A stretch of 64,000 nucleotides of DNA from Roseobacter sinensis (GTDB lineage Bacteria; Pseudomonadota; Alphaproteobacteria; Rhodobacterales; Rhodobacteraceae), in the NCBI RefSeq assembly GCF_025755255.1, contig NZ_JALIEB010000012.1:62001-126000 (forward strand), given 5' to 3'. Under the pieces are notes generated by a model. It was given only the letters and a program-made list of their open reading frames with translations, ran no database searches and was not told where the DNA came from. A program made the position numbers and the translations under genes. Below are positions 21,783-35,732 of the stretch, one piece after another; position 1 is the stretch's first letter; the number at the start of each line of letters is the position of its first letter.

Positions 21783-21926
21783 CGGTGTGGCCGGTCCAAA
21801 TCCAACTCTCACTGATAGCGTGACACTGGTGGAAAATAATTTCAATAGATTTCTTCAAAAGGAAATGGAAAACAAAAAAGCCATTAAAAACATATAGAAA
21901 AATAATATCTCTAAAAAATGAAAAAC

Positions 21927-21967
21927 TTTTTCGAGAAAATTGCAAATGCCGCTCTACTTGCTATTGT
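21927..21967 (+). promoter_or_regulatory. Putative bhcA promoter with overlapping inverted repeat
   Basis: TTGCAA at 21940 and TATTGT at 21962 have 16-base spacing and sit 26 bases before the bhcA start. The near-palindrome TTTTTCGAGAAAA at 21927-21939 abuts the -35 element and is a good candidate BhcR site. The surrounding stretch 21830-21950 is strikingly AT-rich for this genome. Confidence 0.5.
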
Positions 21968-21992
21968 ACGGCTGGCAGAGGAGGAGAGCGCC

Positions 21993-23183
21993 ATGTCAGA
22001 TCAGAATCCCGTGTTCATTCCCGGACCCACAAATATTCCCGACCGGCTTCGCGCGGCGATGCACATGCAGACCCGTGATCACCGCGCGCCGGACTTCGTA
22101 GAGACCTTCGCCCCCGTGCTGGAGGACACGAAGGCCGTGTTCGGCACGAAGGACGGCAAGATCATCACCTTTCCGGCCAGCGGAACGGGCGGATGGGAGG
22201 CCGCGGTCTGCAACACCCTGAGCCCCGGCGACAAGGTGCTTGTGGCGCGGTATGGCATGTTCAGCCACCGCTGGATCGACCTCTGCGAACGCCATGGGCT
22301 TGACGTGCAGGTGATCGACTGTGCCTGGGGTGCCGGTGCGCCTGCCGACCGCTTCGAGGCGGAACTGACCGCCGACGCGGCTCACGCGATCAAGGCGGTG
22401 CTCGTGACCCACAACGAAACTGCAACGGGCGTGACCTCCGACATCGGCGCCGTCCGTGCCGCGATGGATGCGGCGGGGCACCCGGCGATGATGTTCGTGG
22501 ACTGCGTGAGCTCACTGGCCTCGATCGAATTCAAGATGGACGCCTGGGGCGTCGACATCGCCGTGTCGGGGTCGCAGAAAGGCTTCATGCTGGCGACCGG
22601 GATGGCCATCCTCGCTGTCAGCCCCAAAGCGCTCGCGGCGATGGAGACGGCACAGCTGCCGCGCACCTTCTTCGATTTTCGCGACATGTTGCAGGCAAAT
22701 GCCTCGGGTGGCTTTCCCTACACGCCGCCGCTCCAGCTGATCTACGGGCTCCGCGAGAGCTTGAAGATGCTGATGGAAGAAGGGCTCGAGAATGTCTACG
22801 CGCGGCACTTCCGGCTCGCCGAGGGCGTCCGCCGTGCCGTGGATGCCTGGGGCCTCAAGCTGGTGGCGGAACACCCGGAGCTTTACTCCGACACGGTGAG
22901 TGCGATCTATGTGCCCGAAGGGTTTGACAGCAATGCGCTGACCGATCAGGCGTTCAACGCCTATGGGGTATCCTTCGGGATCGGGCTGGGCCAGATGAAC
23001 GGAAAGGCCTTCCGCATCGGCCACCTGGGCAGTCTGACCGATGTGATGGTCTTGTCCGGCCTCGCCACCATTGAAATGGCGATGGCAGATCTCGACTATC
23101 CGATCGAGCTGGGCAGTGGCGTTGCGGCTGCGCAGGACTACTATCGGCAGAACCGCACTGCTCTGATCAAATCCGCAGCATGA
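21993..23183 (+). CDS. bhcA: Aspartate-glyoxylate aminotransferase
   Basis: A 396-residue class V aminotransferase. It makes glycine from glyoxylate with aspartate as amino donor, giving oxaloacetate, the first step of the beta-hydroxyaspartate cycle. The N-terminus FIPGPTNIPDRLRAAMHMQT is typical of alanine-glyoxylate-type transaminases; the PLP lysine is Lys196 in SGSQKGFML, and EVTP-like sites appear as NETATGVTSD near residue 140. ATG 21993 follows GAGGAGAG at a good distance; the reading frame upstream is AT-rich leader. It is first in a four-gene run with 10-75 base gaps, in the same order as in Paracoccus denitrificans. Confidence 0.94.
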   Translation: MSDQNPVFIPGPTNIPDRLRAAMHMQTRDHRAPDFVETFAPVLEDTKAVFGTKDGKIITFPASGTGGWEAAVCNTLSPGDKVLVARYGMFSHRWIDLCERHGLDVQVIDCAWGAGAPADRFEAELTADAAHAIKAVLVTHNETATGVTSDIGAVRAAMDAAGHPAMMFVDCVSSLASIEFKMDAWGVDIAVSGSQKGFMLATGMAILAVSPKALAAMETAQLPRTFFDFRDMLQANASGGFPYTPPLQLIYGLRESLKMLMEEGLENVYARHFRLAEGVRRAVDAWGLKLVAEHPELYSDTVSAIYVPEGFDSNALTDQAFNAYGVSFGIGLGQMNGKAFRIGHLGSLTDVMVLSGLATIEMAMADLDYPIELGSGVAAAQDYYRQNRTALIKSAA

Positions 23184-23193
23184 GAGGACGCAA

Positions 23194-24165
23194 ATGCTGG
23201 ACACATTGACAGGCCCTGATCTCACGATCGACCACGTCTACGCGGCGCACGACCGGATCAAGCCTTACATCCATCGCACGCCTGTGCTGACCTCGAGCTA
23301 CTTCAACGCGTTGACCGGCGCGGAGTTGTTCTTCAAATGCGAAAATTTCCAGAAGGCCGGTGCGTTCAAGGTGCGCGGCGCGTCGAATGCCGTCTTCGGG
23401 CTGAGCGATGCGATGGCGGAGAAGGGTGTGGCCACACATTCGTCGGGCAACCACGCCTTGTCACTCAGCTATGCGGCGGGACGGCGCGGGATCCCCTGCC
23501 ATGTGGTCATGCCTCGCACCGCGCCCGAAGCCAAGAAGGCGGCTGTGCGCGGCTACGGTGGGATCATCACCGAATGCGACCCCTCGACCACCAGCCGCGA
23601 GGCGGTCTTCGCCGAGGTGCAGGAGGCGACCGGCGCGGAGTTCGTGCACCCCTACAACGACCCGCGCGTCATAGCGGGGCAGGCGACCTGTTCGCTGGAG
23701 ATGCTGGAGCAGGTCGAGAATATGGACGCGGTGATCGCGCCCATCGGTGGCGGCGGTATGATCTCGGGGACCTGTCTGACGCTGTCGAACCTCGCGCCGA
23801 AGATGGAGATCTACGCCGCCGAGCCCGATCAGGCTGACGATGCGGCACGCTCCTTCCGGGCGGGCCATATCATCGCCGACGATGCGCCGGTGACCGTGGC
23901 CGACGGGCTCAAGGTGCCGCTGAAGGAGAACACCTGGCACTTCGTCTCCAGCTTCGTGACCGATGTGCTGACGGCCAGCGAACAGGAGATCATCGATGCG
24001 ATGAAGCTAACCTGGGAGCGGATGAAAATCGTGATGGAGCCGAGCTGTGCTGTGCCAATGGCGACGATCTTGCGCAACCCGGAGGTGTTCCGGGGCAAGC
24101 GCGTAGGTGTCATCATCACCGGCGGCAATGTGGATTTGGACAAACTGCCCTGGATCGAGGGCTAA
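23194..24165 (+). CDS. bhcB: Erythro-beta-hydroxyaspartate dehydratase
   Basis: A 323-residue fold-type II PLP enzyme of the serine racemase / threonine dehydratase group. In the cycle it dehydrates erythro-3-hydroxyaspartate to iminosuccinate. The PLP lysine is Lys59 in KAGAFKVRGASN, the substrate loop is HSSGNHALSLSYAA (about residue 80) and the phosphate-binding glycine loop is APIGGGGMISG (about 183). It has no regulatory ACT domain, as expected for this subgroup. Position between bhcA and bhcC, ten bases after bhcA, fixes the assignment; in isolation it could be read as a threonine dehydratase. Confidence 0.92.
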   Translation: MLDTLTGPDLTIDHVYAAHDRIKPYIHRTPVLTSSYFNALTGAELFFKCENFQKAGAFKVRGASNAVFGLSDAMAEKGVATHSSGNHALSLSYAAGRRGIPCHVVMPRTAPEAKKAAVRGYGGIITECDPSTTSREAVFAEVQEATGAEFVHPYNDPRVIAGQATCSLEMLEQVENMDAVIAPIGGGGMISGTCLTLSNLAPKMEIYAAEPDQADDAARSFRAGHIIADDAPVTVADGLKVPLKENTWHFVSSFVTDVLTASEQEIIDAMKLTWERMKIVMEPSCAVPMATILRNPEVFRGKRVGVIITGGNVDLDKLPWIEG

Positions 24166-24176
24166 GGAGAGCGGAT

Positions 24177-25340
24177 ATGAACAAGCAAGTGAAATTCGAA
24201 GACTATGAAGTCGGTTACGACATTCCCGCGGCCATCGGGATGGACGAGGCCGAGATCCAGACGCCTTGCCTGGTGCTCGACCTCGACGCGCTGGAGCGCA
24301 ACATCAAGAAGATGGGGGATTGGGCCAAGGCCCACGGTATGCGGCACCGGGTGCACGGCAAGATGCACAAATCGGTCGATGTGGCCTTGTTGCAGGAGAA
24401 GCTGGGCGGCAGCTGCGGTGTGTGCTGCCAGAAGGTCTCGGAAGCCGAAGTCTTTGCCCGCGGCGGCATCAAGGACGTGCTGGTTTCGAACCAGGTGCGC
24501 CAGCCCGCAAAGATCGACCGGCTGGCCCGGTTGCCGAAGTTGGGCGCCCGCACGATCTGCTGTGTCGATGATATCGAAAATGTTGCGGACCTGTCAGAGG
24601 CCGCCACGCGCCATGGAACTCAGATCGAATGCCTGGTCGAGATCGATTGCGGCGCGGGCCGCTGCGGCGTGACGACGACGCCCGAGGTGGTTGAGATTGC
24701 CAAGGCCATCGACGCGGCGGAGGGGCTCAAGTTCGCTGGTATCCAGGCCTATCAGGGTGCGATGCAGCACCTCGACAGCTATGACGCGCGCAAGGAAAAG
24801 ATCGACGTGGCCGTCGCCATGGTCCGCGACGCGGTCGATGCGCTCAAGGCCGAAGGGCTGGAGTGTGACATCGTCGGCGGCGGCGGCACCGGTTCCTACT
24901 ATTTCGAGGGCAATTCAGGCGTTTACAACGAGTTGCAATGCGGCTCTTACGCCTTCATGGACGCAGACTACGGCCGCATCCTCGACAAAGACGGCAATCG
25001 CATCGACCAGGGTGAGTGGGAGAATGCGCTGTTCATCCTGACCTCGGTCATGAGCCACGCCAAGGCCGACAAGGCCATCGTCGACGCCGGGCTGAAGGCA
25101 CAGTCGGTCGACAGCGGCTTGCCGGTCATTTTCGGGCGCACGGATGTGGAATACGTCAAGTGTTCGGACGAACATGGTGTCGTGGCCGACCCCGACGGCG
25201 TGTTGAAGGTGAATGATAAGCTGAAGCTGGTGCCCGGGCATTGTGACCCCACCTGCAACGTGCACGACTGGTATGTGGGTGTGCGCGGCGGCAAGGTCGA
25301 AACGCTCTGGCCCGTCTCGGCGCGCGGCAAGGCCTACTAA
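24177..25340 (+). CDS. bhcC: Beta-hydroxyaspartate aldolase
   Basis: A 387-residue fold-type III PLP enzyme of the D-threonine aldolase family, which condenses glycine and glyoxylate to erythro-3-hydroxyaspartate. The N-terminal alanine-racemase-like barrel carries the PLP lysine in HGKMHKS (Lys62). The C-terminal segment VPGHCDPTCNVHDWY has the His and Cys pair that binds the divalent metal in this family. It begins 11 bases after bhcB. The match in length, order and neighbours to the Paracoccus bhc locus makes the cycle assignment strong. Confidence 0.93.
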   Translation: MNKQVKFEDYEVGYDIPAAIGMDEAEIQTPCLVLDLDALERNIKKMGDWAKAHGMRHRVHGKMHKSVDVALLQEKLGGSCGVCCQKVSEAEVFARGGIKDVLVSNQVRQPAKIDRLARLPKLGARTICCVDDIENVADLSEAATRHGTQIECLVEIDCGAGRCGVTTTPEVVEIAKAIDAAEGLKFAGIQAYQGAMQHLDSYDARKEKIDVAVAMVRDAVDALKAEGLECDIVGGGGTGSYYFEGNSGVYNELQCGSYAFMDADYGRILDKDGNRIDQGEWENALFILTSVMSHAKADKAIVDAGLKAQSVDSGLPVIFGRTDVEYVKCSDEHGVVADPDGVLKVNDKLKLVPGHCDPTCNVHDWYVGVRGGKVETLWPVSARGKAY

Positions 25341-25355
25341 GTCAAAAGATCCCTT

Positions 25356-25383
25356 GCGCGCGCCCGTGCCTCGCGGCGCGCGC
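25356..25383 (+). promoter_or_regulatory. Hairpin between bhcC and bhcD
   Basis: A perfect nine-base-pair stem, GCGCGCGCC with GGCGCGCGC, around a ten-base loop in the only long gap (75 bases) of the bhc operon. Without a T-run it may tune bhcD level or mark an RNA-processing point. Confidence 0.55.
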
Positions 25384-25415
25384 CTTCTCAAATTCTGGAA
25401 AGACTGGACAACCCG

Positions 25416-26393
25416 ATGGCCGAAGGTTTGTTGATCGTGGGCGAAGACGTCTGCGCTGACGTGGTGAGCAGCAAGGATGCGTTCGATGCGGTGGAGGCTG
25501 TCTTTGGCGCCATGGCACGTGGCGATGCCTATAACTTCCCCGTCATTCGCGAAGCCATCGGCTATGCGGATGCGCTTTACGGCTTCAAATCCGGGTTCGA
25601 CAGGGCGGGCAAGACGCTTGGCGTGAAGTCGGGCGGCTATTGGCCCGGCAATATGGACAAGGGTCTGACCAATCACCAGTCGACCATCTTCCTCTTCGAT
25701 CCGGACACCGGCATGCTGCAGGCGCTGGTGGGCGGCAACTACCTGACAGCCGTGCGCACGGCCGCCTCCTCGTCGGTGTCCATCGCCCATCTGGCGCGGC
25801 CGGATGCGAAGGTGCTGGGGATGGTGGGCGCGGGGCATCAGTCCACTTTCCAGCTGCGCGCTGCGGCCGAGCAGCGCAATTTCGAGAAGGTGGTCGCCTG
25901 GAACCCGCATCCCGAGATGCTGCCGCGCCTGGCGGAGGTGGCCGAGGGCTTGGGTCTGGACTTTGACGCAGTCAGCCCGGAAGAGCTCGGCGCTGAGGCC
26001 GATGTGATCATCACCATTACCTCGGCGTTCGAGCCGCTGCTGATGAAGGACTGGATCAAGCCCGGCACGCATATCGCCTGCATGGGCACCGATACCAAGG
26101 GCAAGCAGGAGCTCGATCCTGCGCTGCTGGCGGCGGCCACCGTCTTCACCGACGAGATCGCGCAATCGGTCAGCATCGGCGAGGCGCAGCACGCGATTGC
26201 GGCGGGTCTGATCGCGGAGGCCGACATCACGCCGATCGGCGCCGTGATCAACGGCACACACCCGGGGCGGCGGGATGCACAAGAGATCACCCTCTTCGAC
26301 GGAACCGGCGTCGGGCTTCAGGATCTCGCCGTCGCCTCGGTCGCGGCCCAAAAGGCCGAGCAGGCCGGCAAGGCCACGCGCGCCGCGCTCTGA
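25416..26393 (+). CDS. bhcD: Iminosuccinate reductase
   Basis: A 325-residue member of the ornithine cyclodeaminase / mu-crystallin family. In the cycle it reduces iminosuccinate to aspartate with NADH, regenerating the amino donor for BhcA. The substrate domain has KTLGVKSGGYWPGN (about residues 67-80), and the Rossmann loop is GMVGAGHQSTFQLRAAA (about 130). The C-terminus covers the second part of the substrate domain (TVFTDEIAQSVSIGEAQHAI). The ribosome-binding site is weak (GGAC), and the gene follows a hairpin, so its expression may be lower than that of bhcABC. Confidence 0.92.
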   Translation: MAEGLLIVGEDVCADVVSSKDAFDAVEAVFGAMARGDAYNFPVIREAIGYADALYGFKSGFDRAGKTLGVKSGGYWPGNMDKGLTNHQSTIFLFDPDTGMLQALVGGNYLTAVRTAASSSVSIAHLARPDAKVLGMVGAGHQSTFQLRAAAEQRNFEKVVAWNPHPEMLPRLAEVAEGLGLDFDAVSPEELGAEADVIITITSAFEPLLMKDWIKPGTHIACMGTDTKGKQELDPALLAAATVFTDEIAQSVSIGEAQHAIAAGLIAEADITPIGAVINGTHPGRRDAQEITLFDGTGVGLQDLAVASVAAQKAEQAGKATRAAL

Positions 26394-26535: not shown

Positions 26536-28215
26536 ATGCCTGAGCAGCCATGGACGAATGACACCAAGATGAGCACCCACGACGGGACACTACCACCAGA
26601 GGCGAGCAGCGAGGCGCTTGCACCCGGCAGTCAGTTGCTGAGCGGGCAATACGAGATTGTCCGCTATCTCAGCAGCGGTGGGTTCGGCATTACCTATCTG
26701 GCAAAGGACAGCCTCAACAGAACCGTGGTGATCAAGGAGTGCTTTCCGGAAGCCTTCTGCAGCCGCATCAAGAAAACCGTACGCGCCCGTACGCGCAACT
26801 ACGTCAATGATTTCAAGTCGATTGTCGCACTCTTCATTCGCGAGGCCCATGCGCTCTCGCGTCTCAACCACAAGAGCGTGGTCGGCGTGCACCAGGTCTT
26901 CGAGGACAATGAAACCGCCTATATGGCGCTTGATTTCGTGGATGGGAAGGACCTGCTCGAGATCATCGAAAGCGGCAGCCCCGCCATGTCGCCGAAGCAG
27001 GTGCGCAGGCTGACCCTGTCGCTGCTCGACGCGATTGCGCACGTCCACAGCCAGGACCTGCTGCACCGCGATATCTCGCCCGATAACATTCTTGTCGACA
27101 AATCGGGTCATCCGGTCCTGATCGACTTCGGTGCCGCCCGCGAGGAGGCGAGCCGCAAGAGCCGCGTGCTGTCCGCCGTGCTGGTGGTCAAGGACGGCTA
27201 CTCGCCGCAAGAGTTCTATGTTGCCGGCAGCCAGCAGTATCCCTGCAGCGACCTCTATGCGCTGGCCGCGTCGCTCAGTCACCTGATTTCCGGTGAAGCG
27301 CCGCCCAACAGCCAGGCGCGGCTTGCAGCGCTCGCATCCAGCCAGCCCGATCTCTACAAGCCTCTGCGCGGCCGTTTTCCGGCGTATGACGACGCTTTCC
27401 TTGCCGCCATTGACAAGGCCATGAGCATTGTTCCGGCCGACCGCGTGCAGTCGGCCGAAGACTGGGTGCTGATGATCGATCACGCCCGGCGCGCCGAGGT
27501 TGCGCGGGAGCGGGCGCGCGATGATGACGCGATCAACCTGACCGTCAGCAATCTCATTCAGTCGATGCAGGACGACGGCGATCCGGCGCGGGCCGAGACG
27601 CCACAGCCAGAGCCCAAACGCGTGGTGGCGCAGGCGGCCCCCGTGCAGAGCCGGCCGCTTGAGACGAAATACGACGAGGCGTTCCTGCGCGACCTCTATG
27701 ACGACGCAGAAGACGAGACCGCAGCGCGCAGCGATGCGGTCCGGGATTCGGATGTCGACGAGATGCTCGAGGAACTCTACCAGGGGGCCGAGCCGGCACC
27801 GCCGCCGGGCGCCGACACCGATCCGGTTCCGCCCTTGGTTTCAAAAGCCGACACGCCGCTGCCGGAGACTGAGCAGCCGGCGGCTGCTCCGCCAAAGGCT
27901 GACACGCATGAGCCTCCGGCACCGAACGTGCCGGCGAACGACCCGATTGCGCGTCTGAAAGCGCGCGCAACCCTGCCGCCGGTGATGTCGCAAGAGGAGT
28001 TCGACGCCGTTATCGCCGCCGAGCAGGTGGCGCCGACAGGGCGGAATCTGAGGCGCCTGGCCACCATCCCGGTGATCCTCTTCGCCTACTTCTTTCTCGG
28101 CCACACCGCGCTGCAGTTCGACAATGTGCACGCGGTCACGGTCGGACAGATCATCACACTAGGTGAAGACTACGGGTATTGGACGGCAAGCCGCTCTTAC
28201 ACGGCGGGCGGATAG
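26536..28215 (+). CDS. Membrane-anchored Ser/Thr protein kinase
   Basis: Encodes 559 residues. A eukaryote-like kinase domain spans about residues 38-315: glycine loop LSSGGFGITYLA, ATP-binding Lys67 in VVIKECFP, catalytic HRDISPDNIL with Asp179 and DFG-type IDFGAA with Asp197, all intact. An acidic, Pro/Ala-rich linker (about 340-500) leads to one membrane helix (TIPVILFAYFFLGHTAL, about 507-523) and a tail of about 30 residues beyond the membrane. It is the first gene of an FHA / PP2C / GTPase / dynamin run, so those products are likely substrates or readers. ATG 26536 has TTGAGG at -14; ATG 26569 is an alternative. Confidence 0.88.
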   Translation: MPEQPWTNDTKMSTHDGTLPPEASSEALAPGSQLLSGQYEIVRYLSSGGFGITYLAKDSLNRTVVIKECFPEAFCSRIKKTVRARTRNYVNDFKSIVALFIREAHALSRLNHKSVVGVHQVFEDNETAYMALDFVDGKDLLEIIESGSPAMSPKQVRRLTLSLLDAIAHVHSQDLLHRDISPDNILVDKSGHPVLIDFGAAREEASRKSRVLSAVLVVKDGYSPQEFYVAGSQQYPCSDLYALAASLSHLISGEAPPNSQARLAALASSQPDLYKPLRGRFPAYDDAFLAAIDKAMSIVPADRVQSAEDWVLMIDHARRAEVARERARDDDAINLTVSNLIQSMQDDGDPARAETPQPEPKRVVAQAAPVQSRPLETKYDEAFLRDLYDDAEDETAARSDAVRDSDVDEMLEELYQGAEPAPPPGADTDPVPPLVSKADTPLPETEQPAAAPPKADTHEPPAPNVPANDPIARLKARATLPPVMSQEEFDAVIAAEQVAPTGRNLRRLATIPVILFAYFFLGHTALQFDNVHAVTVGQIITLGEDYGYWTASRSYTAGG

Positions 28216-28282
28216 GAATGCGTTTGGTCGGTTCCGGTTTCATGCGGACGGCTGGTAACAAGTAACAAGGGAAAGGCACGAT

Positions 28283-29377
28283 ATGACACTCTTCCGGAAG
28301 GTTTTTCAGAACCAATCGACACCGGCCACCGGCGACGAAGGCTTGGACGAGGACGCGCTGCGCGAAGCCTTCATGGAGACGTCCGACGAGCGTGTCCTGT
28401 CGCTCGATCCCTTCGCGGTTGCCGAGACGGGCGACGACGACGATCTGGCAGCAGACCTGTCGCGGGATGATGACGTCGACGACTTGGGTGAAGCGGGTGA
28501 AGCCGCACCTGACGTGCAAGAGGCGCCTGAGGCGGTCGAGGAGGAGGAGGACGAAGATGCCGGCGCGGACATTGCTGCCGTTCTGGCCCAGACCCGCCTG
28601 CCGGAGGAGGAGCCCCGGACCGAGGCGGACGATGCGGACGAGCCGGAGCCAGAGGATCAGCTGGCGCGCGACATGGCGCCCGAGCCGCACGAGACGGCCT
28701 TTGACGACGAGCCCGCGCAGGAGATGGTGGGCGGCCCCGACAGCGAAGCGGATACGGATCCTGAGGTTGTGGCCTTTGCCAAGCGCCAGCTCGAATTGTC
28801 GGTCACGCCCGATGCGCCGGCACCGGCGGCCCCGGTGGATCTGTCTGGCGCAGCAAACGGCGCGCCCGTGCCTGCACCGATGGCAGGTCGGTCCGGACGC
28901 CAGGCCGGGCGGGTCAAGACCCGTCTGCTCGGGTTCAACCGTGGCGATCACGGCGCGCAGGACCCGATCGGTGCCACGTCGGGTGCGACGGCCACGCCCC
29001 AGAATGAACGGTTCCCCGTGGGCTGGCTGGTGGTTGTCGAAGGCCCGGGCGTGGGCCATGCGTTCAGCATCTTCACCGGCGCATCGATGATTGGGCGCGG
29101 CGAGGATCAGGGCATCAAGCTTGATTTCGGCGACAACAGCATCTCGCGGCACAACCATGCGGCCATTGCCTATGATGAGGAGCAGAACAAGTTCTACATC
29201 GGGCATGGCGGCAAATCGAACATCATTCGGCGCAACGCGCGCCCGGTGCTCAGTACTGAAGAGCTGCACCATGCGGATCTGATCCGCATCGGCGAGACGA
29301 CGCTGCGCTTCGTGGCGCTCTGCGGCTCGGACTTCAAATGGGATGTGACGGATGGCGGCGATGCCTCCGAGCTTTGA
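28283..29377 (+). CDS. FHA-domain protein with long acidic N-terminal region
   Basis: A 364-residue protein. The first 215 residues are extremely acidic and low-complexity (Asp/Glu/Ala), with scattered threonines suitable for phosphorylation. A forkhead-associated domain follows at about residues 255-350, with the phosphothreonine-reading motifs GRGEDQ, SISRHNHAAI and the later IIRRNARPVL. FHA domains bind phosphothreonine peptides, so this is a probable reader of the kinase encoded 67 bases upstream. The gene overlaps the phosphatase by 26 bases. AAGGGAAAGG precedes the start. It has no signal or membrane segment, and its binding partner is unknown. Confidence 0.88.
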   Translation: MTLFRKVFQNQSTPATGDEGLDEDALREAFMETSDERVLSLDPFAVAETGDDDDLAADLSRDDDVDDLGEAGEAAPDVQEAPEAVEEEEDEDAGADIAAVLAQTRLPEEEPRTEADDADEPEPEDQLARDMAPEPHETAFDDEPAQEMVGGPDSEADTDPEVVAFAKRQLELSVTPDAPAPAAPVDLSGAANGAPVPAPMAGRSGRQAGRVKTRLLGFNRGDHGAQDPIGATSGATATPQNERFPVGWLVVVEGPGVGHAFSIFTGASMIGRGEDQGIKLDFGDNSISRHNHAAIAYDEEQNKFYIGHGGKSNIIRRNARPVLSTEELHHADLIRIGETTLRFVALCGSDFKWDVTDGGDASEL

Positions 29378-30212
29378 CTTCGATGCAGCCTCCGCGCTGA
29401 GCCAGGGACGGCGCAGCTATCAGGAGGATGCGGTGATCGCCGATTTTTCGCGCGGCTCCGATGTCGGCCTCGCCGTTCTTGCCGATGGCATGGGCGGGCA
29501 TGCGGCAGGCGACGTGGCCAGCAAGATCGTGGTGACCGAGGTCTTCAGCGAATTGATGTTCCAGCGCGGCGATCCGGCGGCCTTCGAAGAAACCGTGACC
29601 CAGACGCTTCTGGATGCGGCCATGGCTGCAAACGCCTGTTTGCGGCATCACGTGGCCGCGCACCCCGAGACCCATGGCATGGGGGCCACGTTGGTGGCCA
29701 CGGTCATCCTCAACCGCAACCTCTATTGGATCTCGGTCGGGGATTCGCCTCTGTTCCTTTTCCGCAATGGCACGCTGTCGCAGCTGAACGAGGACCATTC
29801 GATGGCGCCGCAAATCGACTTTATGGTCAAGTCCGGGCTGTTGAATACCGAAGAGGCACGTTGCCACCCGGACCGGAACACGCTGACGTCAGTGCTCTTC
29901 GGCGAAGAGGTGCCGCGCATCGATTGTCCGGACGAGCCTCTCGAGCTGCGCGGCGACGATGTTCTGATTGTTGCAAGCGACGGGCTGCAGTTTCTGACCG
30001 ACGAAGAGATCACGGAGGTTCTGGTAACACATCAAGACGCGCATAGCAGCGAGATTGCCGACAACCTGCTGGCACGGTTGAGCGATTTGCAGGATCCGGA
30101 TCTCGACAACGTATCGTTTTCCATCGTGAAGCTGAAAGACTCCAGCCACCGGCAGGCCGAGGCGGCCGAAGCCGGGCCCGCGGCCGAGGACGCGCTGCGC
30201 CGTGCTGGATGA
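29352..30212 (+). CDS. PP2C-family Ser/Thr phosphatase
   Basis: A 286-residue PPM/PP2C phosphatase, the expected antagonist of the kinase. The metal-binding motifs are complete: GRRSYQEDA (about residue 20), VLADGMGGHAAGD (about 43), GMGATLVA (about 105), SVGDSPLFLF (about 127) and the late VASDGLQFL (about 205) and DNVSF segments. The start is either ATG 29352 or ATG 29361, both within the end of the FHA gene. Its stop overlaps the GTG start of the following GTPase gene by 11 bases, so the four genes form one transcript. The order kinase-FHA-PP2C recalls the post-translational switch of type VI secretion, but no secretion genes lie here. Confidence 0.9.
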   Translation: MAAMPPSFDFDAASALSQGRRSYQEDAVIADFSRGSDVGLAVLADGMGGHAAGDVASKIVVTEVFSELMFQRGDPAAFEETVTQTLLDAAMAANACLRHHVAAHPETHGMGATLVATVILNRNLYWISVGDSPLFLFRNGTLSQLNEDHSMAPQIDFMVKSGLLNTEEARCHPDRNTLTSVLFGEEVPRIDCPDEPLELRGDDVLIVASDGLQFLTDEEITEVLVTHQDAHSSEIADNLLARLSDLQDPDLDNVSFSIVKLKDSSHRQAEAAEAGPAAEDALRRAG

Positions 30213-31329
30213 TCTGTCCCCCGAGACGGTGGTCGCGCGTCTCGATCACGCGCTGGACCATGGCGGTCTGACCGGATCCTCCCGCACGCAGGCGCGGGCG
30301 CTGCGGGATCGGCTGCGCGCCGGGGTTCAGGTTATGATCCTGGGGCCGAAGGGCGTGGGCAAGTCCCAGCTCTGCGAGGTCATGCTTGAGCTTGACGCGT
30401 CCGCGCCGGAGGATGAGGCCTGCTGGGCACGCCGGTACATGAGCGCGGCGGCCTGCGCAGCGGGCGACGAAGAGGGGCTGCAGACCATGGCGCTGCCGAG
30501 CCCGCTGCTGGACACCACCTCCCTGATCGACGTCGCGACGCCCACCGCGCCGGAGGCGCTGGCCGAGCGGGTGGACTGGGCGTTGCGGCACGCCGACATT
30601 GTGATCTGGTGCACCGATACCTTTGCTGCCGATGAAGCCGCGCTTTGGGCCGACGCGCCGGATCACCTGAAGGATCACAGCGTTCTGGTTCTGACGAAAG
30701 CCGATGTGCGCGCGGCCGAGGGCACGATGGACGCTCGCATTTCGCAGTTGCAGGCCGTCGCCGCGGAGGAGTTTCACAGTTTCTTTCCGACCGCAGCGGC
30801 GCAGCCCCATCGTACTCTCTGCGAGGGTCGGGGGCTCGACGATGCGACGCTGGCGGCAAGCGGCATCAAGGCGCTGCGCGATACGCTCTTGCGGATCGCC
30901 GCCTCTGGCCTGCGCGCGGACCTTGACCGGGCGCTGTTGTTTCTCGACCGTCACGACCTGCAGCCCGCCGCCGAGGCCGCACCCTCACCGGCCGGCGCCA
31001 TCACCCCCGACGCGCCCGCGGCCAAAACCTATCACGCGGCGCTCGACCTGCTGCGCGCGCGGATCCCTGAGCTGTCTCCGCAAGACGCAGCGTATGATGC
31101 GCCGGATCATGTGCTGACCGCCTGCGGCAAGCTTGTCGAGGACCTTGCCGAGCTCGCAGCCGAGCAGACCCGAAGCGACGATGCGTTCGAGCACTGGCGC
31201 AACGATCTTTACGAGGCCAGCGACAAGGTGGTCCTGATGAGTCTCGAGAATGACATGCGCTCGGCCGCTGATGCCGCCACCGTGATCTTGCAGCTGAAAC
31301 GGGACCTGGAAGGCCGGGTGGCTGGTTAA
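30202..31329 (+). CDS. P-loop GTPase-like protein
   Basis: A 375-residue protein with a Walker A / G1 motif GPKGVGKS at residues 48-55, an aspartate-containing strand near DTTSL and a G4-like LTKAD near residue 165, so probably a TRAFAC-class GTPase related to the dynamin/GIMAP-like groups. The C-terminal half (about 230-375) is helical and has no recognisable domain. It starts at GTG 30202 within the phosphatase gene. Sharing HADIVIWCTDTFAADEAALW with the downstream GTPase (ADAVIWCSPSTQAWRQSEA) suggests common ancestry. Function is unknown; it presumably works with the two dynamin-like proteins that follow. Confidence 0.7.
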   Translation: MLDDLSPETVVARLDHALDHGGLTGSSRTQARALRDRLRAGVQVMILGPKGVGKSQLCEVMLELDASAPEDEACWARRYMSAAACAAGDEEGLQTMALPSPLLDTTSLIDVATPTAPEALAERVDWALRHADIVIWCTDTFAADEAALWADAPDHLKDHSVLVLTKADVRAAEGTMDARISQLQAVAAEEFHSFFPTAAAQPHRTLCEGRGLDDATLAASGIKALRDTLLRIAASGLRADLDRALLFLDRHDLQPAAEAAPSPAGAITPDAPAAKTYHAALDLLRARIPELSPQDAAYDAPDHVLTACGKLVEDLAELAAEQTRSDDAFEHWRNDLYEASDKVVLMSLENDMRSAADAATVILQLKRDLEGRVAG

Positions 31330-31508
31330 AAGCCTAACTATTCGTGGTATTTGCGCCGACAGATCGCCACAATCGGATCACATTTCCAGCCCATGTAGAG
31401 AGTGAAGAAGACTCTTTCGCGGGGCAGCAGTATCATGGCGAGCAGGCCGACATACGTGCAATCGGACAGCGCATCTTGGCGCAAGCAACCTCCGGTCGGG
31501 GGCCCGGC

Positions 31509-33587
31509 ATGAATGCTCTGACCTCCTCCAACCGCGCCGGCTTTCAGCAGGCGACCCGGGCACAACTGCTTGGCCTCGGTCTCGGGCCCATGGGTGAGAT
31601 TGCCGCGGCGCGCGACCGGCTGCGCGAGGCGCTGGCCGGGCTTCAAGAGCTCGGCGACAGTGGCACCGCGAAACGCGCGGAGCGGCTCGCGCGTCAGCTT
31701 GAGACTTTCGAACCCAGCGTGACGCTGATCGGGCAGATCAAGTCGGGCAAGACCTCGCTGGTCAATGCCCTCATCGGGCAGCCCGATCTCTTGCCAGCGG
31801 ATGTGAACCCCTGGACATCTGTGGTGACCTCCCTGCATCTGCATCCCGAGGCCGCGGGTTTCACCGAGGCGGCATCCTTCCAGTTTTTCGACGAGGACGA
31901 GTGGGACCGCCTGATTTCCGGCGGTGGCCGCATCGGCGAGCTGGCCAGCCGTGCCGGAGCCGACGAGGAGTTGGAGAAGATCAAGGCGCAGGTCGCCGAG
32001 ATGCGCGAGAAATCACGCCAGCGCCTGGGCCGGAAGTTCGAGCTGCTCCTTGGGCAGCAGCGCGACTACGGCTACGTCGATAAGGATCTGATCGAACGCT
32101 ACGTCTGTCTTGGCGATGAGCCGGACGGCGATGATCCCGACGTCTCCGATGAGCAGGGGCGCTTTGCCGACATCACCAAATCCGCCGATCTCGATCTGCA
32201 ATGCCCCGGGCTACCCATCCGCCTGTGCCTGCGCGATACGCCCGGCGTGAATGACACCTTCATGATGCGCGAGCAGATCACCATCCGGGCGATCCGGGAC
32301 AGCCGCATCTGTGTCGTCGTGCTCTCGGCGCATCAGGCGTTGTCGTCCACCGATCTCGCGCTGATCCGGCTGATCACTCATGTGAAATCCCGCGACGTGA
32401 TCATCTTCGTCAACCGCGTGGACGAGCTCTCTGATCCGAAAGTCCAGATCCCCCAGATCAGGGCCAGCATTGCCGAGACGCTGGCACGCCACAAAGGTCC
32501 GGAAGATGCCGAAGTGATCTTCGGCAGCGCGCTTTGGGCGTCTCATGCGCTGGAGGGGCGTCTGGAGGACTTGCCGCAGGCGAGCGCCGATGCGCTGCTG
32601 GACTGGTCCGAACAGGCCGACCTGAGCCAGATCCTCGCCGATGAGGACACCCACGATCCGGTCACGCTGGCGTGGGGCCTGTCCGGCGTGCCGCAGCTGC
32701 AACGCGCGGTGTCCGGGCGGGTTGCCGAAGGGCTCGCCCACGCCACCCTGCACCGGATCGGCACCAGTGCGCTCAATCTCAGCACGGCGATCTCCGCCCG
32801 GCATCACGTCTCATCCGGCGCGGTGGACGTCACCAAACTCGGCAAGCTGGAGCGGACCGCGGCGCGCGCCCGTCTCGACGAGATCCTCACATCGCAGGCC
32901 GAGGCGTTGCGCACGGCGTTCGACAGCATCCTCGCAGAGTTCTCCGACCGGATGGACCGGGTCCAGGCCAGCTTCCTTGATCGCGCGACCGCCTCGCTGA
33001 TCGTGCATCTTGAAAAGCACGGCGATGGCTCACCCTGGACCTACGATCCCGCGGGGCTGCGGATGCTGCTCGGCTCGTCGCACAAGGTCCTGGCGCGGAA
33101 GAGCAAGGCCACCTTCGAGGCCGCGACCCAGACGGTGCGGGATGAGCTTGCCACGCTTTATGCGCAGGCCTTCGGGCTGGGGCCGGATCAGATGACCGTC
33201 GCGCAGCCTCCGGCGCCGGATGTCCCCGCGCCCGTCACGCTGGGCCGAACCATCGCGCTGGACCTCAACGGCAGCTGGTGGAAACGCTGGTGGCTGCATC
33301 GGCGCGGCTACAAGGCCTATGCCGCCAGCTTCCACGATCTGATCAAGGCCGAGACCGACCCCTTCGTCGACGAATTGCGCGATGATCTGGCGCAGGGCAT
33401 CCGCAGCACCGCGCTGGAGGCCTTCGACAGCTTCCTGGCCGAGCAGCACTCTGTCTTTCTGTCGCTGGACGAGATGGCACAGGCCGACCCCGCCGAGATG
33501 CGCGACCGCATGGCAGCGGCGGCCCCATCCCAGAGCACGGAGCTGCTGCGCAAGACCCTGGATATCCTGAGCGAGTATGCGACATGA
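31509..33587 (+). CDS. Dynamin-like GTPase (large)
   Basis: A 692-residue bacterial dynamin-family protein. The GTPase domain has G1 GQIKSGKTSLVNALIG (about residue 74), G2 threonine in NPWTSVVTSL, G3 DTPGVNDTF (about 243) and G4 FVNRVDEL (about 301). Long helical regions follow, as in BDLP-type stalks, and near residue 580 there is an unusually aromatic/basic patch SWWKRWWLHRRGYKAY that could act as a membrane-insertion paddle. Dynamin-like proteins remodel or fuse membranes. I start at ATG 31509; an upstream in-frame GTG at 31344 is open but has non-native third-base use. It overlaps the next GTPase by ATGA. Confidence 0.85.
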   Translation: MNALTSSNRAGFQQATRAQLLGLGLGPMGEIAAARDRLREALAGLQELGDSGTAKRAERLARQLETFEPSVTLIGQIKSGKTSLVNALIGQPDLLPADVNPWTSVVTSLHLHPEAAGFTEAASFQFFDEDEWDRLISGGGRIGELASRAGADEELEKIKAQVAEMREKSRQRLGRKFELLLGQQRDYGYVDKDLIERYVCLGDEPDGDDPDVSDEQGRFADITKSADLDLQCPGLPIRLCLRDTPGVNDTFMMREQITIRAIRDSRICVVVLSAHQALSSTDLALIRLITHVKSRDVIIFVNRVDELSDPKVQIPQIRASIAETLARHKGPEDAEVIFGSALWASHALEGRLEDLPQASADALLDWSEQADLSQILADEDTHDPVTLAWGLSGVPQLQRAVSGRVAEGLAHATLHRIGTSALNLSTAISARHHVSSGAVDVTKLGKLERTAARARLDEILTSQAEALRTAFDSILAEFSDRMDRVQASFLDRATASLIVHLEKHGDGSPWTYDPAGLRMLLGSSHKVLARKSKATFEAATQTVRDELATLYAQAFGLGPDQMTVAQPPAPDVPAPVTLGRTIALDLNGSWWKRWWLHRRGYKAYAASFHDLIKAETDPFVDELRDDLAQGIRSTALEAFDSFLAEQHSVFLSLDEMAQADPAEMRDRMAAAAPSQSTELLRKTLDILSEYAT

Positions 33588-34510
33588 CACCTGACGAGAC
33601 AGTACCGGCGGCCGCGGCCTTTGCACGGGCCCTCACCGGCCCGCGCCGGCCGCGCATCGCCCTGATGGGGGAGTTCAGCGCGGGCAAGAGCACCTTGGCC
33701 AATCTGATGATCGGCGCCGACCCCTTGCCGGTGCAGGTGATCGCGACACAGCTTCCGCCTGTCTGGATCAGCCATGGCACAGCGCCTGCTGCAATAGTCG
33801 ATCTCGAAGGGTCCGAAGCGCCCTGTGATCTTGAAACCTTGCAGGAAGCGGCCGCCGAAGACACCGCGTTCATTCGCATTCAATGCGAAGAAGACATTCT
33901 CCAGATGTGCGACATCATCGACATGCCGGGGATCTCGGATCCCAACATGCCATCGGAGGTGTGGGAGCGCATCCTGCCTCTCGCGGATGCGGTGATCTGG
34001 TGCAGCCCCTCGACCCAGGCCTGGCGGCAGAGCGAAGCCTCGGTGTGGGCCATGGTGCCCGAGCATGTGCGCGCGCAGTCGCTGCTTTTGCTGACCCGCG
34101 GCGACATGCTGCATTCCGAGAAAGACCGCCGCAAGGTGCTGCGGCGCGTGCAGGGCGAGACCGAGGGGCTGTTTCGGGACACGCTGATGATCTCGCTCAC
34201 ACAGGCCCGCGATGCCGAAGATGATCCGCAGCAATGGGAGGAGAGTGGGGCAGAGCCCTTCGTGAACGCGTTTCTCGATGTCGTGGCGACAGTCGCCGCG
34301 CAGGTATCCGATGAGGCCCCCAATGCGGCCTTTGACAGGCTGGCGCCATCTCCTGAACCGGCAGCCGAACCGCAGGAGACGGCGCCGCCCGACACGTCCG
34401 ATCGGATCGTCCCGCGGCGGCCTGTGGCCAAACCCGGCCGCGCGCGATCCACACCGCGACCGCAGCCCATGCCCGAGGATGACTTGAGCCTGACCCCCAA
34501 ATTCTCATGA
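33584..34510 (+). CDS. Dynamin-like GTPase (small, partner)
   Basis: A 308-residue GTPase with the dynamin-type G1 motif GEFSAGKSTLANLMIG (about residues 29-44), G3 DMPGISD (about 113) and a G4-like LTRGD (about 169). It is little more than a G domain plus an Arg/Pro-rich disordered tail (about 240-308), so it lacks the stalk of true dynamins. Its ATG overlaps the stop of the large dynamin-like gene, implying equimolar synthesis; tandem, non-identical dynamin pairs are a recurring bacterial arrangement. The tail, with many Thr-Pro and Ser residues, is a plausible kinase target. Function unknown. Confidence 0.78.
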   Translation: MTPDETVPAAAAFARALTGPRRPRIALMGEFSAGKSTLANLMIGADPLPVQVIATQLPPVWISHGTAPAAIVDLEGSEAPCDLETLQEAAAEDTAFIRIQCEEDILQMCDIIDMPGISDPNMPSEVWERILPLADAVIWCSPSTQAWRQSEASVWAMVPEHVRAQSLLLLTRGDMLHSEKDRRKVLRRVQGETEGLFRDTLMISLTQARDAEDDPQQWEESGAEPFVNAFLDVVATVAAQVSDEAPNAAFDRLAPSPEPAAEPQETAPPDTSDRIVPRRPVAKPGRARSTPRPQPMPEDDLSLTPKFS

Positions 34511-34610
34511 TATTTGCCAGGAAGCATTAACCGGACGCACATCATCTGACGCTATATCCGGTCCGGCGCGGGCGCGAAGCCGTCGCGGGGACTGGAGTTA
34601 GGTAGACAGG

Positions 34611-34994
34611 ATGGCAGTGCAGGATCGGCTGGACGATTTGCGCGCCCGGTTTCCGGGGTGCCGGATTGTGGCGTTTGCCGATCTGTCGACTGGGTTGGTC
34701 TTTGCCGCCAGCACTGCAGAGAGGGTCGGGCAAGAGCGGCTCGATGCGCTGTGCGCGGATGCGACGCAGCAACTCGACAGTGCGGCGACACAGGCGGTGT
34801 CCGAGCACGTCTTTCAAACCCAATTGGCGCCGGCTGGATCCATTTCGATTGGATCGCAGGTGGTGACCTGCGTCGTCTCGCTGCCGGATCGGGGGGCAGA
34901 GGCGCTTTGCATGACCTGCGACCGAACGGTCAGAGTTGTCGAATTGATGCGCGCGGCCGCCGATGTGTTGTCCGACCTCTGCGAAGAGGCCTGA
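34611..34994 (+). CDS. Roadblock/LC7-like small protein
   Basis: A 127-residue protein whose alternating pattern fits the Roadblock/LC7 (MglB-like) fold: helix 1 (VQDRLDDLRARFPG), two strands (CRIVAFADLSTGLVFAAS), a long helix (RVGQERLDALCADATQQL), a three-strand section (FQTQLAPAGSISIGSQVV) and a C-terminal helix (VVELMRAAADVLSDL). Roadblock proteins commonly regulate small GTPases, which fits the three GTPase genes just upstream. The gap of 100 bases before it may hold a separate promoter. The assignment rests on fold pattern alone, without diagnostic residues, so it is moderate. Confidence 0.55.
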   Translation: MAVQDRLDDLRARFPGCRIVAFADLSTGLVFAASTAERVGQERLDALCADATQQLDSAATQAVSEHVFQTQLAPAGSISIGSQVVTCVVSLPDRGAEALCMTCDRTVRVVELMRAAADVLSDLCEEA

Positions 34995-34997
34995 CCC

Positions 34998-35732
34998 ATG
35001 TCCGATGCGCACCGCGACGATGAACACCGTCTCCACCATGTTCTCCAGCAATTGGCGCTGCCGCCCGAGCCTGCAACGGCTGCGGGCCGGCTGATCTCGG
35101 GGTCCGGCGCGGATGCCCCGCTGGCTGCGATCCTGCGCGCCATCGACGAAACGGTCCTGCCGCGGGTTCTGACCTTTTCCGCCGGCACGGACAGCACGCT
35201 TCGCTGCGAGATCGCCGAGCGTCGGATCATCCGCATGGAGGGGGGCGATGCGCTGTCGACGGCGGATGCAGCCCAGACTGCTGCGACGATCGAGGCGTTT
35301 TGCGCTGGCGCTTCTGCGATCTGCCTGCGCAGCGAGATTGCGACGGCTGCCGCCGCCGCAGGCGAGGTTGGGGTCTCGGTCGGCGATCTGCGCGCGTGCC
35401 TCGATACGGAGCCCGCCGCGGGCGATCTGCCTGCGCTGATCGACTGCGCGCTCGCCGAAAGTGCAAGCCATGCGCTCGCCATTGTGGACCGTCAGGACGA
35501 TGGCACCACGCAGGAGAAGGGCCAGAGCGCACTTTGCGAGCGGTTGCGGCGAATGGACAGCACGCCGGCGTCGTCGGAGACGTCAGGTGATGTCACCCGG
35601 CAGATCTGGATCGGGGCACCGTCAGAGCGGTTCGCGGTGCTTTGTGTCAGCGTACCGGGACGCTCCATCTGGATGGCGCTCGACGTCGAACAGCTCGACG
35701 ATTGCATCGATATCTGGGCGCGGGTGGGGTGA
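34998..35732 (+). CDS. Unrecognised 244-residue protein paired with the Roadblock-like gene
   Basis: I do not recognise a family. The protein is soluble, Ala-rich and has no signal or membrane helix. A strand-rich part around residues 55-85 (RVLTFSAGTDSTLRCEIAE) is followed by a long helix (TADAAQTAATIEAFCAGA) and a C-terminal strand pair (IGAPSERFAVLCVSVPGRS). Its start is three bases after the Roadblock-like stop, so the two are very likely co-translated partners, perhaps subunits of one regulatory complex. It ends the kinase-GTPase cluster; the next gene starts 214 bases later behind its own ribosome-binding site. Confidence 0.65.
   Translation: MSDAHRDDEHRLHHVLQQLALPPEPATAAGRLISGSGADAPLAAILRAIDETVLPRVLTFSAGTDSTLRCEIAERRIIRMEGGDALSTADAAQTAATIEAFCAGASAICLRSEIATAAAAAGEVGVSVGDLRACLDTEPAAGDLPALIDCALAESASHALAIVDRQDDGTTQEKGQSALCERLRRMDSTPASSETSGDVTRQIWIGAPSERFAVLCVSVPGRSIWMALDVEQLDDCIDIWARVG

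Follow-up and report, generated by a model that had tools for sequence, protein, structure and literature searches.

A conserved eight-gene cassette of Rhodobacteraceae joins a kinase-FHA-PP2C set to dynamin-type and Roadblock-type genes

The stretch of DNA analysed here, called the window, comprises 64,000 nt of Roseobacter sinensis (NZ_JALIEB010000012.1) and carries a cassette of eight genes, A to H, at 26536-35732, or from 26446, as the reading frame of A is open from that position. A check against the list of open reading frames (ORFs) placed all eight on the + strand, at the positions given in the original prediction of a co-directional cluster. A (26536..28215) encodes a Ser/Thr protein kinase (Pfam protein kinase, 5.2e-29) with its HRD, DFG and VIK lysine intact and a predicted C-terminal transmembrane helix (about 28057-28113). 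B (28283..29377) encodes an acidic FHA-domain protein with the FHA match at residues 270-337 (1.7e-6) and, N-terminal to that domain, a KTRLLGF motif (28916..28936) recognised by its conservation in alignments. C (29352..30212) is a PP2C phosphatase by Pfam (1.5e-11), and is Stp1/IreP-like while scoring under the cut-off of that model. D (30202..31329) has a dynamin-type G-domain related by profile comparison to F and to Cj-DLP2 of Campylobacter jejuni, and its P-loop (30343-30366) is retained in the window copy. E (31344..33587) is a large dynamin-like GTPase, whose top sequence match among solved structures is Cj-DLP1 and which contains a conserved patch, WWKRWWLHRRGY, at 33276..33311. F (33584..34510), a small dynamin-like GTPase with Cj-DLP2 as its top match, consists of a G-domain and a proline/arginine-rich tail; E and F match Pfam Dynamin_N at 3.8e-13 and 2e-10. 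G (34611..34994) has a Roadblock/LC7 fold in its predicted structure, and H (34998..35732) is a fast-evolving partner in whose model residues 140-244 (about 35415-35729) resemble a Roadblock/longin-type domain. The window copies of D, G and H gave no match above cut-off in Pfam or NCBIfam.

The junctions had been predicted to be mostly overlapping or very short. This holds for four of the seven, with overlaps of 26 bp (B-C), 11 bp (C-D) and 4 bp (E-F) and a gap of 3 bp (G-H). The gaps A-B (67 bp) and F-G (100 bp) are longer, and D-E measures either 14 bp or, with E starting at a conserved ATG at 31509, 179 bp. That ATG is probably the start of E, rather than the GTG at 31344, because most of 22 aligned E homologues share a start codon in this column. 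A scan for promoters and terminators was uninformative, with one promoter-like site against 0.9 expected and seven terminator-like sites against 4.9 expected.

Relatives of E were collected by scanning one genome per species, and the best 80 of 264 were kept. The titles of these 80 were Rhodobacteraceae or less specific alphaproteobacterial, and the nearest relatives of the window E among them were Roseobacter records. Loci were annotated with hidden Markov models of all eight genes, and 89 were compared after 11 duplicates (L025-L032, L034, L035, L037) had been dropped. All eight genes were present in the same order in 76 of the 89 loci. Among the 13 incomplete loci, nine end at contig edges, one is broken inside C and three have dynamin-type pairs only. 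Median gaps in the 76 complete loci, measured between longest ORFs, were 29 bp (A-B), -77 bp (B-C), -4 bp (C-D), 156 bp (D-E), -4 bp (E-F), 82 bp (F-G) and 3 bp (G-H). The two halves meet at C-D, and the overlap there in the window, together with the median of -4 bp, was counted in favour of one unit. The flanks vary, with 28 families immediately upstream (67 loci) and 38 downstream (72 loci); the neighbours thus change from one lineage to another, and it is the cassette that is conserved as a unit. The flank proteins (n=115) match 134 Pfam families, and the 25 of these shown are mostly metabolic or regulatory.

Co-occurrence was analysed with one genome for each of 198 genera of Rhodobacteraceae. 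E was present in 48 genera, and the D profile matched the same 48, partly via cross-match to F. H was found in 42 of the 48 E-positive genera compared with 0 of the 150 E-negative ones. B occurred in 41 genera, made up of 38 of the 48 with E and 3 of the 150 without. By Fisher tests uncorrected for shared ancestry, the association of E with H has p < 1e-27 and that of E with B a p of about 7e-28. The original prediction had named rare neighbourhood of the two halves in other genomes as a sign of chance juxtaposition; these counts and the 76 complete loci are the opposite. Collectively, the eight genes form one unit in most loci examined. Chance juxtaposition is ruled out by the composition and order kept across loci with changing flanks.

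Wider searches for E, covering 289 genomes across the class at 1e-15 and 279 across the phylum at 1e-6, matched two and four of them, respectively, every one a member of Rhodobacteraceae. A single-sequence search at 0.001 added two weak matches outside the family but inside the class (8.5e-5, 7.7e-4). Within Roseobacter, 15 of 19 genomes, that of the window among them, have E; 14 of the 19 have all eight genes, one has E-F only and four lack E and the kinase. In the four without E, the kinase was not matched at 1e-60, and any D match was no better than 1e-6. At 1e-60 the kinase was matched in 16 of 23 E-positive genomes chosen from outside the genus.

The genes also diverge in a correlated manner. 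Across 74 loci, Pearson correlations of pairwise distances for A-E, C-E, E-H and A-H were 0.75-0.93, with 0 of 999 permutations as high, and Spearman correlations for all 28 gene pairs were 0.50-0.78. The fastest-diverging proteins were H, D and G, with mean pairwise differences of 0.76, 0.66 and 0.65 compared with 0.46 for E. Three Roseobacter genomes carry second, diverged cassettes (L039, L041 and L040, the last cut by a contig end). In a tree of 28 E proteins, these second copies cluster with Parasedimentitalea L075 (support 1.000), apart from the first copies of the same genomes, which suggests that the second cassettes moved as whole blocks. The E-F-only locus L038 occupies the corresponding site and branches as sister to L033, a full-cassette locus, in this tree (support 1.000), which implies a loss of six genes; no remnant of the six was seen in L038. 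Directly upstream of the cassette, at 21918-26393 of the window, lie four genes that resemble the beta-hydroxyaspartate cycle set bhcA-D, the third of which matches Ala_racemase_N and D-ser_dehydrat. In 10 of 67 loci, and also in L038, the gene directly upstream is the last member of this set.

The kinase, FHA and phosphatase genes retain the motifs of their families. In A, HRD and DFG were found in 78 of 79 sequences and the VIKEC-type lysine motif in 72 of 79. C has SDG in 81/81, a DGMGGH-type motif in 76/81 and a GDS-type motif in 78/81; the pattern used for the last PP2C site, a narrow one, matched 50/81. B has the FHA motif GRG in 79/79 and SR..HAA in 73/79. The motif preceding its FHA domain, [KR]TR[LMV][LI]G, is present in 78 of 79 sequences, and its Thr is invariant in 15 of 15 alignment rows. 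In the FHA switches GarA and OdhI, a phosphorylated N-terminal threonine is bound by the protein's own FHA domain. By analogy, the Thr of KTRLLGF is a candidate phospho-threonine switch in B, which matches the NCBIfam OdhI model at 4.6e-4, far under the cut-off of that model.

A hydropathy scan predicted a transmembrane helix in 44 of 79 kinases. The long form of the kinase, found in Yoonia and relatives, has its helix near residue 350 and a long remainder beyond it, and a scan of four long kinases at 0.01 matched no Pfam family except in the kinase region itself. At the C-termini of the L066, L103 and L092 kinases, two terminal segments past the membrane helix look PDZ-like by eye and have no Pfam match. 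In L099 (2634-6158), three related proteins are encoded between A and B; the one scanned has a LysM domain and reads as solute-binding-like by eye. The same clustered family is repeated downstream of the L080 cassette. It is possible that these proteins, which adjoin kinase genes in L099 and L080, are periplasmic sensors.

The E profile, compared with solved structures, best matched Cj-DLP1 (5owv chain A, 2.3e-10), followed by Nostoc BDLP (1.9e-7), and the F profile best matched Cj-DLP2 (5owv chain C, 2.4e-17). Both proteins conserve the G1 and G3 motifs of a GTPase: E has G.[IV]K[AS]GKT in 88 of 89 sequences and RDTPG in 88 of 89, and F has GEFSAGKST and D[MFL]PG.SDPN each in 82 of 89. The WWKRWWLHRRGY patch of E, which contains W[WL]..WW in 87 of 89 sequences, is likely to be a membrane-inserting tip. 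From the start of the P-loop to the end of the protein, canonical F has 256-406 residues (median 280; 73 of the 76 complete loci, those with the exact motif). Judged by its length, F is apparently too short to include a neck and trunk. Twelve F-like or D'-like ORFs in variant and E-F-only loci, where D' stands for a D-type protein in place of F, span 248-774 residues from the P-loop (L145 and L043 being the same gene). They have 440-549 residues in L134, L135, L145/L043 and one of L042, and 277 in L038.

D is related to the same family, matching Cj-DLP2 at 3.7e-9 and F at 5.5e-27 (hhalign), and single D homologues reach 1.4e-7 with MMR_HSR1 and 3.4e-6 with Dynamin_N. None of 40 aligned D proteins has DxxG in the G3 columns, with G3 misalignment possible in some rows. 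The P-loop is missing in 5 of the 40, and the G4 form of the window, TK[AST]D, is kept in 42 of 83. This suggests that D is most likely a pseudo-GTPase, and that the cassette encodes two probable working GTPases rather than the three originally counted.

A profile search of the PDB with G and H gave no credible match, and fold predictions were therefore made. The AlphaFold2 model of G (predicted local distance difference test, pLDDT, 93.8) superposes over its whole length on Roadblock/LC7 and MglB structures, with Z 16.7 and a root-mean-square deviation of 2.2 Å over 118 residues against the Roadblock/LC7 domain 3kye. The model thus supports a Roadblock fold for G, as originally predicted, and none of 51 members gave a Roadblock match by Pfam. 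H, which had been left as an unrecognised partner, was modelled with pLDDT 88.3. For its residues 140-244, the best Foldseek E-value was 9e-4 (Mon1A/Ccz1), with probability 1.00 for MglB and others, and the best Z was 7.6 (98 residues, 4.7 Å), in a list filled mostly by Roadblock and Rag C-terminal domains. A best Z under 8 falls short of proof, so a second Roadblock-like domain in H is probable only. A comparison of G with H showed no sequence link.

Twenty variant regions were picked from genome searches. Three sub-modules, namely kinase-FHA-PP2C, the dynamin pair and the Roadblock pair, are permuted among these variants, and several keep the modules adjacent. The order is E-F-G-H-E'-D'-A-B-C in L135 and E-F-A-B-C-D-E-F-G in L136, A-B-C is divergent from E-F-G-H-D in L134, and L142 has G-H and then E'-D'. 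L130 and L131 contain A-B-C-D, and L129 contains A-B-C-D with an H fragment. L128 has A-B-C-D with G-H about 12 kb off and its dynamins elsewhere, in L042, which has two dynamin-type pairs; the partner in the second of these scores best as D. The E'-D' arrangement fits D as a former dynamin partner. The remaining variants include B-D-G-H (L127), B alone (L139), low-scoring triads (L140 and L144) and E-F alone (L145, the same region as L043). In L143 and L137, a P-loop/ABC-type ATPase gene (L143:9086-10303, L137:9620-10852) lies between the Roadblock pair and the next dynamin-type gene.

Beyond Rhodobacteraceae, the FHA profile reached five alphaproteobacteria of other families, in which the FHA and PP2C genes are adjacent. 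An A-scoring kinase lies within a few kilobases in four of these and was not found in L157. No D-H genes were found at the five loci, and the different neighbours of the kinase-FHA-PP2C genes gave no functional hint. Since FHA and PP2C genes occur there without D-H, we infer that the phospho-switch is a wider piece and that the dynamin/Roadblock part is an addition of the Rhodobacteraceae's own. The kinase, FHA and PP2C genes of L158, L159 and L160 apparently belong to a separate setting; in L159 and L160 they adjoin small membrane proteins that are MotA/ExbB- and ExbD-like by eye.

From the parts, motifs, conserved linkage and correlated divergence observed by computation, we infer the wiring, direction of control and physiological role as follows. 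Kinase A would be the input, and in other lineages it would be a single-span, receptor-like protein with a long region past the membrane helix. It may phosphorylate B and/or the GTPase partners; B would read the phospho-threonine and the phosphatase C would reset the switch. E and F would pair heterotypically, as Cj-DLP1 and Cj-DLP2 do, to bind membrane and either tether or reshape it. D, as a nucleotide-binding or inert mimic of a G-domain, could cap or gate the E-F pair. G and H could serve as a platform for recruiting the G-domains or for setting their GTPase cycle, as MglB does for MglA. The cassette would thus encode a signal-controlled dynamin machine at the cytoplasmic face of the inner membrane, likely for envelope repair or remodelling under stress, a reading to which we give about an even chance. 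Phosphorylation-controlled membrane remodelling, as originally proposed, remains the best inference. A stronger statement, which we make tentatively and with somewhat less than even confidence, is that the cassette may encode a membrane-remodelling machine of a kind not known before from bacteria, with a dynamin-like pair controlled by a dedicated and complete Ser/Thr-phosphorylation switch and by a Roadblock/pseudo-GTPase platform. Passed on within one family as an eight-gene cassette, it would follow the same logic as the phospho- and GTPase-regulated membrane trafficking of eukaryotes.

Several observations weigh against a single signal-controlled machine. The genera sampled are not independent. 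Among the 48 with E, B was not recognised in ten and H was not recognised in six. The kinase search at 1e-60 found nothing in 7 of the 23 chosen genomes (G049, G053, G085, G088, G108, G132 and G187). Dynamin-type pairs stand alone in L038, L043 and L042, and A-B-C occurs without adjacent dynamins in L133, L138, L141, L146 and, with a short D remnant, L132. Pairs without the triad and triads without dynamins indicate that the halves can work apart, so the original view of the two halves as one unit stands for most loci and not for these. In L067, a metagenome-assembled contig, D-H are intact, C is reduced to its last residues and A and B are missing; the C remnant adjoins a short-chain-dehydrogenase-like ORF (L067:1-1243), and the break is either a real deletion or a misassembly. 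Since A has no predicted transmembrane helix at 35 of 79 loci, sensing at the membrane would not be a universal property of this kinase. Finally, as canonical F seemingly has no neck or trunk, a tetramer of the Cj-DLP kind could not form in the same way.

The separate occurrence of both halves would also be expected of two independent units that do not act on each other and have only a transcript or a transferable neighbourhood in common. The similar FHA-PP2C genes that adjoin different genes in other alphaproteobacteria and the apparent movement of second copies as whole cassettes are in line with this explanation. Against it, the composition is the same in 76 of 89 loci despite changing flanks, the permuted variants are still clustered and H was never found without E in the 198 genomes, and we regard independence as rather unlikely. 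Alternatively, the kinase-FHA-PP2C genes might control type VI secretion by threonine phosphorylation and the dynamins be passengers: the PpkA, Fha and PppA cluster of that system combines the same three activities of kinase, FHA reader and PP2C eraser. The sheath protein VipB (PF05943), however, was unmatched in the window genome, which is 99.6% complete, and was found in only 14 of the 48 E-positive genomes; no type VI secretion family is among the 25 flank Pfam families shown of 134. This control is rejected for the window genome for want of a VipB match, and we consider it highly improbable overall.

In a role in phage resistance, which the original prediction raised, the kinase would sense infection and the dynamins would hold off lysis by sealing or stabilising the membrane at a late stage. 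Phage defence stays in consideration because B. subtilis DynA delays phage lysis (PMC8844932). The patchy distribution (48 of 198 genera), the grouping of second copies with another genus and the rapid divergence of H, D and G would suit such a role, and in PADLOC A scores with the PD-T4-6 and mad6 kinase models and E and F score weakly with LeoA/LeoBC. The kinase scores look generic for Ser/Thr kinases, in our judgement and without a control, and DynA is described in the same paper as reacting passively to membrane deformation, with no sophisticated signal perception needed (PMC8844932). Searched with PADLOC at 1e-10, the 115 flank proteins yielded four families of one or two members each and thus no support for a defence island, so that the neighbourhood does not bear out the phage-resistance proposal. 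We consider an anti-phage system unlikely. A somewhat fainter candidate still is polarity or cell-cycle positioning, in which the Roadblock pair and the G-domains would mark a pole or division site, like MglA/MglB or Streptomyces DynA/DynB, with timing by the kinase. The fold of G is close to MglB and other Roadblocks, and Streptomyces DynA and DynB are reported to interact in vivo (PMC6104087). Pfam nevertheless detected no small Ras-like GTPase in the cassette, and E was not found in 150 of the 198 genera, so it is not core to division.

The activation of bacterial dynamins is largely an open question, and DynA is described as a passive case (PMC8844932). If the proposed envelope-remodelling machine is real, the cassette would offer a tractable case of signal-controlled dynamin action and of Roadblock proteins acting on large rather than Ras-like GTPases. 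The natural variants, with the pair alone, the triad alone or permuted orders, are ready-made comparisons.

Among known systems, the Cj-DLP1/Cj-DLP2 pair of C. jejuni (PDB 5owv), described as a 2:2 tetramer that tethers liposomes (PMC6104087), is similar in having adjacent, unlike dynamin-like GTPases. E resembles DLP1 and F (and D) resembles DLP2; the cassette has such an adjacent pair with G1 and G3 motifs and homology to both 5owv chains. Cj-DLP2, however, has 614 residues, whereas canonical F is short, has a proline-rich tail and by its length would not provide the neck and trunk through which DLP2 dimerises back to back. The cassette further adds the degenerate G-domain of D, the kinase-FHA-PP2C genes and the Roadblock genes. 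E-F may therefore work like the Cj-DLP pair without being a plain member of that type. Conservons, the actinobacterial G protein systems CvnA-D, are similarly operons with a sensor kinase, an MglB-type Roadblock protein and a GTPase, as they are described in PMC13343842. Compared with that description, the cassette has a Ser/Thr kinase (A, by Pfam) with FHA and PP2C partners, and its competent GTPases, E and F, match Dynamin_N, in contrast to the small Ras-like CvnD. In MglA/MglB(/MglC), a Roadblock protein likewise adjoins a GTPase and G superposes on MglB, but the cassette has no MglA-like GTPase and its partners are dynamin-like. The cassette differs from the PpkA-Fha-PppA set in that no type VI secretion sheath gene was found in the window genome. 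B. subtilis DynA and LeoA/LeoBC are also dynamins of bacteria, with links to membrane protection or putative defence; their similarity to E and F is weak and, as described, they have no kinase/FHA/PP2C or Roadblock partners. The original prediction knew of no described system joining both modules, and no published description of the combination was found in the open-licence literature searched. The recognised components belong to known families and the dynamin pair to a known kind; what appears new is the conserved union of such a pair with a complete phospho-switch and a Roadblock/pseudo-GTPase set.

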